From Synechococcus sp. JA-3-3Ab (GTDB lineage Bacteria > Cyanobacteriota > Cyanobacteriia > Thermostichales > Thermostichaceae): 64,000 nt of DNA. Position 1 is the stretch's first letter, and each line of letters opens with the position of its first letter. The notes under the pieces were generated by a model. The model made no database searches, was not told the DNA's origin, and was given only the letters and a program-made list of their open reading frames with translations. Position numbers and translations under genes: made by a program. This document shows positions 31,198 through 37,835 of the stretch, piece after piece. The stretch is from positions 496,001 through 560,000 of the forward strand of contig NC_007775.1 in assembly GCF_000013205.1 (NCBI RefSeq), in the 5' to 3' direction.

Positions 31198-33402
31198 ATG
31201 CATCGGATAGCCGCTTTGCCAGGGGGATGGGATCCTTCGCAAGGCGGGGTCGTTTTCCTGGAGCAGGATCCGGCCCCCATCGTTGTCCTGTCGGCAGCCG
31301 ACACGGATCTGACGGCCTTGAGCGCGGCGATGCGGCTGCTGCCGGCTGATTTTCCAGCGGTGCGGGCGGCCAATTTGCTGCAGTTGCAACAGCCCCTGAG
31401 CATCGACGACTACGCCGAGAAAGTGTTGCGGCGGGCCCAGGTGGTGCTCCTTCGCCTTTTGGGGGGAAGGGCCTACTGGAGCTATGGCCTGGAGGTGGCC
31501 AAAGAGGTAGCGGCAGCAGCGGGATCCACCCTGATTGTGATCCCTGGGGATGACCGCCCCGACTGGGATTTGGTCAGCCACTCCACCGTGCCCCTAGCGG
31601 TGGCAGACCGGGTGTGGCAGTACTGGCTGGAAGGGGGGGCGGCCAATGTGGCGGCCTGCTTGAAACTCTTGGCCAGGGAGTTCCTGGGGCAGGAGTACGC
31701 CGTGCCGGAGCCGCAGGTGCTGCCCCGCCTGGGGATCTACTATCCCCCCCTGCCCAGGGATCCCCACGCCCCCAAGGTAGGGATCCTGCTCTACCGGGCC
31801 CATGTTTTGGCGGGGAATACGCAGCCCATAGATGCCCTGGCCGAAGCCCTGCAGGAGCGGGGGTTGCAGCCGCTGTGTCTTTATACCTACAGCCTGCAGG
31901 AGCCGGACTTGCCCCAGGCCATGCGGGAGCACTTCGGCGGCCAAATTGAACTTTTGTTGAACACCACCAGTTTTTCCCTCGCTCGGCTGGAGAGCGAGCA
32001 GCCCGATGTTCGCCTTTGGCAGGAGCTGGATGTGCCGGTTGTGCAGGTGGTCTTGAGCAGCGGGTCGCGGGAGCGCTGGGAGAACGCCACGCGAGGCTTG
32101 GGGGCGCGGGATCTGGCCATGAACGTGGTGCTGCCAGAGGTGGACGGGCGCATCCTCAGCCGGGCCATCTCGTTCAAGACGGTTCAACAGTGGGATCCCC
32201 GCCTGCAGACGGAGATCATGGCCTATGAGGCCGTGCCGGATCGGGTGGCGTTTGTGGCCGAGCTGGCGGCCAACTGGGTAAAGCTGCGGCGCACCCCTGC
32301 CGAGCAGCGCCGTCTGGCCTTGATTTTGGCCAACTACCCCAGCCGGGATGGGCGGCTGGCCAATGGGGTAGGGTTGGATACACCGGCAAGCTGCGTCGAG
32401 ATCCTCAAAGCCCTGGCGCAAGCCGGCTACCGCGCCTGTCCACTGCCCCAGAGCGGAGATGAGCTCATCCGCTGGCTAACCCAGGGCCAAACCTATGATC
32501 CGCTGGGATCCCTACGCCCGGCGCGGCAGGTGCTGCCGGCTGCCCTCTATCGGGAGTGGTTTGCCCAGTTGCCTGCCGCTGTCCAAGGCGATCTGCTGCG
32601 GCAGTGGGGGGATCCGCCTGCCCACGACATCCCCATTGTCGGCCTGCAGCTAGGGCACGTTTTTGTCGGGATCCAGCCGCCGCGGGGCTACGACCGGGAT
32701 CCCTCTTTGAACTACCACGCTCCGGATCTGGTGCCACCCCACGAGTACCTGGCCTTTTACCTGTGGCTGCGCCAGGTGTTCGGCGTCCACGCGGTGGTGC
32801 ATGTGGGCAAGCACGGCAACCTGGAGTGGCTGCCCGGCAAGGGATCCGCCCTTTCCGCCACCTGCTACCCAGAAATTGCCCTAGGGCCTCTGCCCCACTT
32901 CTATCCTTTCATCGTCAACGACCCCGGCGAAGGATCCCAGGCCAAGCGGCGGGCCCAAGCGGTGATCCTCGACCACCTCACCCCGCCCCTGACCCGCGCC
33001 GAGCTCTACGGCCCCTTGGCAGAGTTGGAGCGGCTGATGGACGAGTACTACGAGGCCCAGCAGATGGATCCGGGCCGCTGCCCCCTGATTCGCGCCCAGA
33101 TCCAAGAGCTGGTTCGCCGAGAGCAGCTGGACTGGCAGTTCAACCTGGAGAAAGAGGAAGACTGGGGCCGCCTCGATGGCTACCTCTGCGAGCTCAAAGA
33201 ATCCCAGATCCGGGATGGGCTGCACATTTTTGGCCGCACCCCCACTGGCGAGCAACTGGTGGATCTCCTGTTGGCCCTGGCCCGCTACCCGGGCGCTGGC
33301 CAGTTGGGCCTCACCCAGGCCATTGCCCGCGACTGGGGCTGGGACTGGGATCCCCTAGCCGTTGACCTGACAGAGCCCTGGCCGGACAAACCGCCGGCTT
33401 AG
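31198..33402 (+). CDS. cobN: CobN/magnesium-chelatase-H-like protein, half length
   Basis: A 734-residue protein matching the N-terminal part of cobaltochelatase CobN, which inserts Co(II) into the corrin ring. Recognisable blocks are YWSYGLEVAKEVA, AHVLAGNTQPIDALAEAL, GARDLAMNVVLPEVDGRILS and HVGKHGNLEWLPGKGSALS. Full CobN has about 1200-1300 residues; here the frame ends soon after DWDWDPLAVDLTEPWPD, where the family continues. No C-terminal half lies downstream before rbp. Either the subunit is split and the rest is elsewhere, or the gene is truncated. It abuts the mobile-element graveyard. Confidence 0.82.
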   Translation: MHRIAALPGGWDPSQGGVVFLEQDPAPIVVLSAADTDLTALSAAMRLLPADFPAVRAANLLQLQQPLSIDDYAEKVLRRAQVVLLRLLGGRAYWSYGLEVAKEVAAAAGSTLIVIPGDDRPDWDLVSHSTVPLAVADRVWQYWLEGGAANVAACLKLLAREFLGQEYAVPEPQVLPRLGIYYPPLPRDPHAPKVGILLYRAHVLAGNTQPIDALAEALQERGLQPLCLYTYSLQEPDLPQAMREHFGGQIELLLNTTSFSLARLESEQPDVRLWQELDVPVVQVVLSSGSRERWENATRGLGARDLAMNVVLPEVDGRILSRAISFKTVQQWDPRLQTEIMAYEAVPDRVAFVAELAANWVKLRRTPAEQRRLALILANYPSRDGRLANGVGLDTPASCVEILKALAQAGYRACPLPQSGDELIRWLTQGQTYDPLGSLRPARQVLPAALYREWFAQLPAAVQGDLLRQWGDPPAHDIPIVGLQLGHVFVGIQPPRGYDRDPSLNYHAPDLVPPHEYLAFYLWLRQVFGVHAVVHVGKHGNLEWLPGKGSALSATCYPEIALGPLPHFYPFIVNDPGEGSQAKRRAQAVILDHLTPPLTRAELYGPLAELERLMDEYYEAQQMDPGRCPLIRAQIQELVRREQLDWQFNLEKEEDWGRLDGYLCELKESQIRDGLHIFGRTPTGEQLVDLLLALARYPGAGQLGLTQAIARDWGWDWDPLAVDLTEPWPDKPPA

Positions 33403-36801: not shown

Positions 36802-36888
36802 GCAGAATCCAGGCCAGGCTTGTTAAAGGACTACCCTATAGGTTAGCAGGCTTACTTTAAGCCGGCGGGCTCTTGCTAGGGATCCCTC

Positions 36889-36920
36889 TTGACCTTGTAG
36901 TTAGCTATAGGGTTTAGGCT
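36889..36920 (+). promoter_or_regulatory. MerR-type promoter/operator
   Basis: A -35 box TTGACC (36889-36894) and a -10 box TAGGCT (36915-36920) are separated by 20 bp, the over-long spacer typical of promoters twisted open by MerR proteins. The spacer carries the dyad ACCTTGTAG-TTAG-CTATAGGGT (36892-36913). A related palindromic stretch, CTACCCTATAGGTTAG, lies upstream at about 36829-36844 and could be a second site. Confidence 0.78.
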
Positions 36921-36954
36921 GAGAGAGCTTCTGGAGAGAGGGAATCAACCGGGC

Positions 36955-37377
36955 ATGTCTGAACTGCTGCGGGTGGGTCAGGTAGCCGAGAAACTGGGCA
37001 TCACCCCCCAAACCCTCTACTTCTACGAGCGCCTGGGGCTCATTCCCAAGCCGCGCAGGACGGAGGGGGGCTATCGCCTCTACGGGGAGCCTGAGCTGGA
37101 GCGGCTGGCTTTCATCGCCCGCGCCAAGGCTTTGGGACTTACCCTAGCCGAGATCAAGGAACTGCTCTTGCTTCAGGAGAATGGGCAGGCTTTGCCCTGT
37201 TGGCAGGTGTACGTAAAGCTAACCGAAAAGCTCAGACAAATCGATAAGTCAATTGCCCATCTGCAGGAACTCAGAGGGGAGTTGTCAACACTCATTGAAA
37301 AGTGTCAACAAAAATTTTCTGAGCAAGAGAAAAGCTCTTCTTGCGCCATCTTTCAACAACAGCTTGATAACTCATGA
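36955..37377 (+). CDS. MerR-family metal-responsive regulator
   Basis: A 140-residue activator with a winged-helix DNA-binding N-terminus (RVGQVAEKLGITPQTLYFYER, then GYRLYGEPELERLAFI) and a long dimerisation helix. Metal-type cysteines occur at PCWQ, EKCQQ and SSSCA. The first two are 35 residues apart, as in mercury MerR, but the third is 13 residues further, with a longer loop. It probably senses a thiophilic metal (Hg, Cd, Pb, Zn or Cu). It overlaps the next gene by four bases and sits behind a matching operator, so it is autoregulated. Confidence 0.88.
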   Translation: MSELLRVGQVAEKLGITPQTLYFYERLGLIPKPRRTEGGYRLYGEPELERLAFIARAKALGLTLAEIKELLLLQENGQALPCWQVYVKLTEKLRQIDKSIAHLQELRGELSTLIEKCQQKFSEQEKSSSCAIFQQQLDNS

Positions 37378-37835
37378 CAAGAGAACCCCTTGTACCATTT
37401 TCTGCTAGTGCTTGGCAGCCCTTGTGCCCAAGAAGTGGGGAGCAGGGGATCTCAATTCAACTGATTACCCTGAAGAGCCTGCTATCTCCTCCAGCTTTGG
37501 CACAATTGGATGCCGACAGCAGCTATGCGTTTTGTCGGGATCCCATTTGTCCTGTTGTTTATTTTTCTGAGCAAGGTCAGAGCTTTGGGGTTGACGACCT
37601 CAAGGTTCCAGTCTTTCAAAAAGAAAGTGGCGAGGACGTGCCCGTCTGCTACTGTTTTGGCTGGACGCGCCAGCGCATCCGGCAAGAGCTGAAGGGATCC
37701 AAAACGCCCCAGGCCATTCTGGAGGAAATTGCCGCCCACATCAAAGCCAAGCGCTGCGGCTGCCAGGTCAACAACCCGCAGGGGTTTTGCTGTCTGGAAA
37801 ATGTTAGGCAGTTTATCTCTGAAGTGCAACAATGA
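37374..37835 (+). CDS. CopZ-N-terminal-domain-like iron-sulfur metallochaperone
   Basis: A 153-residue protein resembling the N-terminal domain of Archaeoglobus CopZ, which binds a [2Fe-2S] cluster and a zinc ion. The Cys blocks are CPRSG near the start, YAFCRDPICPVVYFSEQG, PVCYCFGWTRQRI and RCGCQVNNPQGFCC. The C-terminal HMA copper-binding domain of CopZ is absent. Translational coupling to a MerR regulator (ATGA overlap) indicates metal-induced expression. A role in metal reduction, delivery or sequestration is inferred. Confidence 0.8.
   Translation: MTREPLVPFSASAWQPLCPRSGEQGISIQLITLKSLLSPPALAQLDADSSYAFCRDPICPVVYFSEQGQSFGVDDLKVPVFQKESGEDVPVCYCFGWTRQRIRQELKGSKTPQAILEEIAAHIKAKRCGCQVNNPQGFCCLENVRQFISEVQQ

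Follow-up and report, generated by a model that had tools for sequence, protein, structure and literature searches.

Results

Organization of the locus

We analysed a 64-kb stretch of Synechococcus sp. JA-3-3Ab DNA (NC_007775.1, positions 496,001 to 560,000), hereafter called the window. The host is a hot-spring-type cyanobacterium. The window carries a merR gene and a gene for a stand-alone CopZ-type protein, copZN, preceded by a promoter of the MerR type (Table 1). These elements, and the overlap of the two genes (4 bp, ATGA), had been proposed from the letters of the sequence alone (the original prediction) and were all recovered. The start of copZN is secure because the upstream in-frame stop lies only one codon (CTC) before the ATG.

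Table 1. Features of the merR-copZN locus (window coordinates; other loci and assemblies are designated in the text by L and G numbers)
Feature	Position	Strand	Basis or context
MerR-type promoter with imperfect dyad operator, CCTTGTAG-TTAG-CTATAGGG, 19-nt spacer	36889..36919	+	sequence; pattern from relatives
Inverted copy (9/9) of operator half CTATAGGGT	36833..36841	-	between valS and merR, in valS leader
merR, MerR-family activator/repressor, 140 aa, Cys82/117/130	36955..37377	+	
copZN, CopZ N-terminal-type Zn/[2Fe-2S] protein, 153 aa, NF047645, without HMA	37374..37835	+	

MerR proteins are described as activators of promoters with over-long spacers, acting through DNA distortion (PMC9909328). 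The promoter of merR is of this stretched type, as predicted: TTGACC (36889-36894) is followed by a 19-nt spacer (36895-36913) and TTAGGC (36914-36919). Its -10 element is weak, and an alternative reading with an 18-nt spacer and TTTAGG is possible. A sigma-70 scan restricted to spacers of 16-18 nt did not find it.

The operator pattern is degenerate, and was drawn by eye from about 10 relatives with the window site already in view. It matches the 64-kb window once, with 0 mismatches, and 100 shuffled windows gave 0 matches at up to 3 mismatches. The same pattern is present without mismatch in 11 of 29 loci of the MerR clade described below, and with one mismatch in L003, the closest relative of the locus. 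It is absent near L119, the second MerR of the JA-3-3Ab genome, and 5' of merR in L118 (assembly G295). At about 7110-7200 of L118, other DNA seemingly replaces the operator 5' half and the -35 element, and the merR-merF-copZN operon of L118 may thus have lost its control. The inverted half-operator upstream of the window promoter could be a second half-site or could be due to chance. Elsewhere in the window, a CobN/Mg-chelatase frame of 734 aa (31198-33402) looks cut short, as it covers profile positions 1-626 of 1090.

The MerR regulator

The merR product is a full MerR protein, with the Pfam domains MerR_1 and MerR-DNA-bind. Among PDB entries it most resembles 4ua1 (83 bits), a Bacillus MerR, and 5gpe. 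Compared with the NCBIfam equivalogs it scored 96.7 bits for MerR (TIGR02051, the Hg(II) regulator, cutoff 150.85), 97.2 for ZntR, 99.4 for CadR-PbrR and 92.3 for CueR, all below the cutoffs of 147-168. As no equivalog cutoff is passed, the family models are silent on the metal.

Cys82, 117 and 126 are given as the mercury ligands of Tn501 MerR in PMC5027573. Window MerR matches the first two of these, and its Cys82, 117 and 130 are spaced by 35 and then 13 residues, compared with 35 and 9 for the mercury ligands, which agrees with the prediction of a mercury-like first pair and an extended third position. The 35/13 set is common to L003, L004, L118 and L152, and the 35/9 set is found in MerR of L037, L083, L086, L087 and L076. 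According to PMC9909328, sensors of divalent ions are marked by a Cys instead of a Ser at the residue that corresponds to Cys82 (Cys77 in CadR, Cys79 in ZntR). Window MerR has the divalent-type residue, and C82 is invariant in 21/21 aligned MerR proteins. Window MerR is therefore likely to be a soft-metal sensor, mercury being the best single guess, and other metals are possible because of the permease branch of its clade.

This clade was defined by a search of 386 cyanobacterial genomes (E 1e-25), 36 of which, including that of JA-3-3Ab, contain a relative. We examined 29 loci (L154-L182), 9 further rows having no locus. The exact 35/13 spacing is found in 13 of the 29 proteins; L162 and L166 contain 35/13 plus extra Cys. 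A match to an ArsP-type permease lies downstream of merR in 16/29 loci. Pfam assigns this permease to ArsP_1, and its scores with the SO_0444 and SaoE models stay below cutoff. In the MerR tree the permease-associated proteins form a branch of their own (93/96). One recurrent operon type consists of merR (Cys 35/13), a gene for an MTH895/ArsE-like thioredoxin and one for an ArsP/SO_0444-like permease (L152, 4726-6988; L183, L184, L185 and L191). In L183, merR, the permease gene and copZN occur together, in this order.

The CopZN protein

CopZN scored 124 bits with NF047645 (CopZ_Nterm_CC), above the curated cutoff of 100; this model was matched by 42/42 members of alignment A1. The Pfam domain zf_CopZ was also recognized (66.7 bits), and Fer2_BFD weakly. 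As predicted, the domain search gave no HMA match, and there is no CXXC among the nine Cys of the protein. The predicted model (pLDDT 91.1) has the fold of the Archaeoglobus fulgidus CopZ N-terminal domain, 2hu9 (E 1.1e-07, Z 16.3, rmsd 2.6 over 129, 28% identity; TM 0.82-0.84 by target length). The one further row of the structure alignment, 5v1u_B (Z 2.4), is too weak to use. The A. fulgidus protein joins this N-terminal part to a copper-binding CXXC domain, and window CopZN has no such domain. A 2007 paper reportedly describes a [2Fe-2S] cluster and Zn in A. fulgidus CopZ-NT, and the reduction of Cu(II) by this domain.

All six Cys of the C-terminal set (C92, C94, C128, C130, C139 and C140) are present in CopZN. 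In an alignment of 95 loci, Cys was found at C92 in 95, C94 in 95, C54 in 92, C59 in 92, C18 in 87, C139 in 87, C128 in 86, C130 in 85 and C140 in 85, gaps being counted as misses and most misses coming from cut loci. Orthologues lacking these cysteines would, by its own terms, have refuted the original prediction; each of the nine Zn/FeS Cys counted here is instead found in 85-95 of the 95 loci, and the 35/13 set of MerR is kept in the orthologues listed above.

Two features that are common in the family, neither being a curated criterion of NF047645, are incomplete in the window protein. One is the four-Cys site C18/21/54/59, which we presume to bind Zn: C18, C54 and C59 are present, and the N-terminal CxxC lacks its second Cys, replaced by Ser21 (Cys at 21 in 71/87). 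The other is an N-terminal CC pair, for which the window protein has a gap and which is Cys in 83 and 80, respectively, of the 85 loci with residues there. The CC pair is also missing from L003, which could mean that a metal hand-over was lost in both. That loss of CC results from loss of merF is unsupported as a rule: L004 keeps merF and merT yet has just one Cys at this place, and the merR-copZN pairs of Bacillota keep CC.

The merR and copZN frames are both intact. The window and L003 proteins differ by 36-39%, with pN of 0.23-0.26 and pS of 0.73-0.82; as pS is near saturation, purifying selection is only indicated.

Origin of the gene pair

NF047645 matches are infrequent in cyanobacteria (17/292 genomes at E 0.001, 9/292 above the cutoff). 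Within the family of JA-3-3Ab, 3/8 genomes carry copZN: its own (G000), G295 and G296; the gene is absent from 3 of the 6 genus genomes examined. L003, which from its identical contig coordinates should belong to G296, is a second merR-copZN pair without other mercury genes, at the same valS-merR-copZN junction. The window and L003 form one continuous DNA alignment from valS through merR (1352 bp, 75.3%). In the congeners G177, G294 and G297, valS and cdsA are about 0.84, 0.82 and 0.24 kb apart, without the pair. Inspection by eye of the 217 bp that separate the two genes in L003 showed no merF remnant.

The nearest relatives outside these two pairs contain transporter genes. In G295 (L118) the pair is at another place, and merF lies between merR and copZN (Transport_MerF 54.3 bits, cutoff 24.3; NF033565 75.4 bits, cutoff 50). 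L004, from Gloeomargaritales, has the order merR::merF, merT::HMA, copZN, its MerT protein having a C-terminal HMA domain. The first gene of L004 (4727-5326) is an in-frame MerR::MerF fusion of 199 aa, both parts of which match their families (MerF 82.3 bits). As merR and merF of L118 are separate overlapping genes, it looks likely that the fusion arose by loss of the merR stop region. A membrane-tethered MerR regulator, as this fusion implies, would be unusual.

In the MerR tree the window and L003 proteins are sisters (89/80, not starred), next to the pair formed by L004 and L118 (97/93). The simplest reading of this weakly rooted tree, which would also allow merF to be ancestrally absent, is that a merR-merF-copZN operon lost merF in the lineage of the window and L003. 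A mobile copy was considered and rejected: the window locus shows no sign of being phage or plasmid cargo, its MerR had no plasmid match at E 1e-30, and the copZN relatives in 29 plasmid records are all below 60% identity. Three viral-collection contigs (L202, L203 and L204), which may be genuine viruses or misplaced fragments of plasmids or chromosomes, encode copZN relatives with 32-43% identity.

Gene neighbourhoods and mercury genes

The neighbourhoods of copZN relatives were surveyed by tblastn with 20 reference proteins at 95 loci, a set biased to relatives of the window protein and in which some loci end at contig ends. Two copies of the window (L001, L094) were removed before counting; L021 and L084, from the same plasmid, and the near-identical L032 and L083 were kept. 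As the MerA matches include weak flavoprotein relatives, the stricter count of MerF and MerT was used. At 25/95 loci a same-strand merF or merT gene lies no more than 2.5 kb away, and 18 of these loci also have merR. Where at least 5.5 kb of flank was available on both sides (49 loci), 8 had merF or merT nearby and none had either gene at 2.5-5.5 kb. MerR is encoded upstream of the copZN relative at 26/95 loci. Other partners may have been missed, since 40/95 loci have neither MerR nor a match to any mercury, pump or YnfA reference. In conclusion, the CopZN-type protein belongs often, but not always, to mercury-type operons.

MerR without MerF, MerT or MerA was found at 8/95 loci: the window, L003, L032, L037, L082, L083, L086 and L087. 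The label "unusual", given to a pair without pump or reductase, holds only in part, as such pairs recur, including in Bacillota, Deinococcus and Stenotrophomonas. In these six more distant loci MerR lies directly before copZN and no MerF, MerT or MerA is encoded within 2.5 kb, as in the window. They differ from the window in the spacing of the MerR cysteines, 35/9 in the four measured (L037, L083, L086 and L087), in having kept the CC pair, and, for L032 and L083, in the arsenic genes that follow copZN.

Neither merF nor merT was found above cutoff in the whole JA-3-3Ab genome. No MerA passed its cutoff either, the sole strong match to the MerA model being lipoamide dehydrogenase (447 bits, cutoff 408.8). 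By these cutoffs the genome has no mer operon as defined by merA or by merT/merF, and neither pump nor reductase lies near the pair, as predicted. Four of the congeners G177, G294, G295, G296 and G297 hold a MerA-like FAD oxidoreductase (367-381 bits, below the MerA cutoff), and pieces of such a gene are present in G297. Two long HMA-domain frames of the JA-3-3Ab genome look like P-type ATPases; at up to 3 mismatches, neither of these presumed Cu-ATPases has the operator pattern nearby.

Discussion

The predicted gene pair and its promoter are present as described; its interpretation as a stand-alone two-gene metal circuit holds only in part. Since the closest relatives have merF, or merF and merT, between the same genes, a mercury-type operon in reduced form describes the locus more aptly. 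We consider it probable that it derives, by loss of the transporter gene, from a cyanobacterial merR-merF-copZN operon, with Hg(II) as the most likely inducer. A MerR dimer bound to the 19-bp-spaced promoter would repress it until a divalent thiophilic ion, with Hg(II) the likeliest candidate, is coordinated across the dimer, by Cys82 from one subunit together with Cys117 and Cys130 from its partner. Metal-bound MerR would distort the promoter, switching on merR together with the overlapping copZN. Cytosolic CopZN, with its predicted Zn and [2Fe-2S] centres, would then take up the metal or pass it on, as a buffer or chaperone, possibly with a redox step. Uptake of mercury without its reduction harms the cell, so that loss of a mercury uptake protein is plausible in a genome devoid of MerA.

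The operons of L118, L004 and the annotated Stanieria plasmid (L079, thioredoxin-merR-merF-copZN) have the regulator in the same position as the window, with copZN after the transporter genes; the window differs by the lack of merF and merT. L118 and L004 also share the 35/13 spacing, whereas MerR of the L079 type belongs to another clade and has a 51/5 spacing. Cyanobacterial merR and merA are described in PMC6741143 as not being in one operon; merF or merA lies beside merR in the cyanobacterial loci L118, L004, L079 and L009. The same source gives the DNA bound by Slr0701, the Hg-responsive regulator of Synechocystis PCC 6803, as CCCTATACTTAGGTATAAGG (PMC6741143). By eye, this site shares a core dyad with CCTTATTCTTAGGTATAAGG of L003 and resembles the window operator core, which supports mercury as the inducer. 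Slr0701, compared here by operator only, controls merA (slr1849) at a distance, unlike window merR; a search by exact oligo match did not find Slr0701 itself among the loci examined.

Against mercury stand the MerR scores below every curated cutoff and the presence of an ArsP-type permease, not of mer genes, at 16/29 clade loci. Because of these permease loci the metal may differ from mercury: the same architecture may respond to Cd, Zn, Pb or As(III), as part of the stress response of a wider clade whose other members regulate a thioredoxin-like protein together with a permease of the ArsP/SO_0444 type. The merR-permease-copZN order of L183 and the ArsP_1 assignment are in line with this proposal, which we regard as doubtful since the nearest relatives of both genes are accompanied by merF and merT, and the permease branch stands apart in the tree. 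It is unlikely that the pair is a decaying remnant, no longer useful after loss of the transporter. Such decay would fit the lack of transporter and MerA, the missing CC pair and Cys21, and the patchy presence in the genus, but the frames are intact, every FeS Cys is kept, the operator has no mismatch, and L003 retains the pair despite the divergence of its proteins.

The fold shared with 2hu9 and the two ATPase-like frames also raise the idea that CopZN serves the P-type Cu-ATPases of the genome, as in A. fulgidus. This appears highly improbable and was rejected as the main reading: CopZN has neither HMA nor CXXC, the monovalent/divalent position of MerR is Cys rather than Ser, the operator pattern is missing near both ATPases, and a small HMA-like frame lies immediately before one of them. 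A broader proposal, which we hold to be quite unlikely, is that CopZ-NT-type [2Fe-2S] proteins are an unrecognized general component of mercury operons, the FeS protein here detoxifying the metal by passing photosynthetic electrons to Hg(II). PMC8261052 leaves an opening for it: according to this source MerA is generally missing from oxygenic cyanobacteria, yet Synechocystis reduces Hg(II), perhaps via ferredoxins. If true, it would supply a candidate for Hg(II) reduction in cyanobacteria without MerA.

No paper on a MerR-CopZ-NT pair was recognized in a literature search that covered few subscription journals; one paper contains "copper chaperone CopZ", merF and merR, but separately. The parts of the locus are of known kinds, and their putative joint use would proceed without pump or reductase. 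NF047645, a curated family named "putative iron-sulfur cluster-binding metallochaperone", is functionally uncharacterized as far as we found, and the present results link it to mercury-type operons across phyla. With a regulator and one protein only, the JA-3-3Ab locus offers a minimal natural case for testing what CopZN does when neither transporter nor reductase is present.
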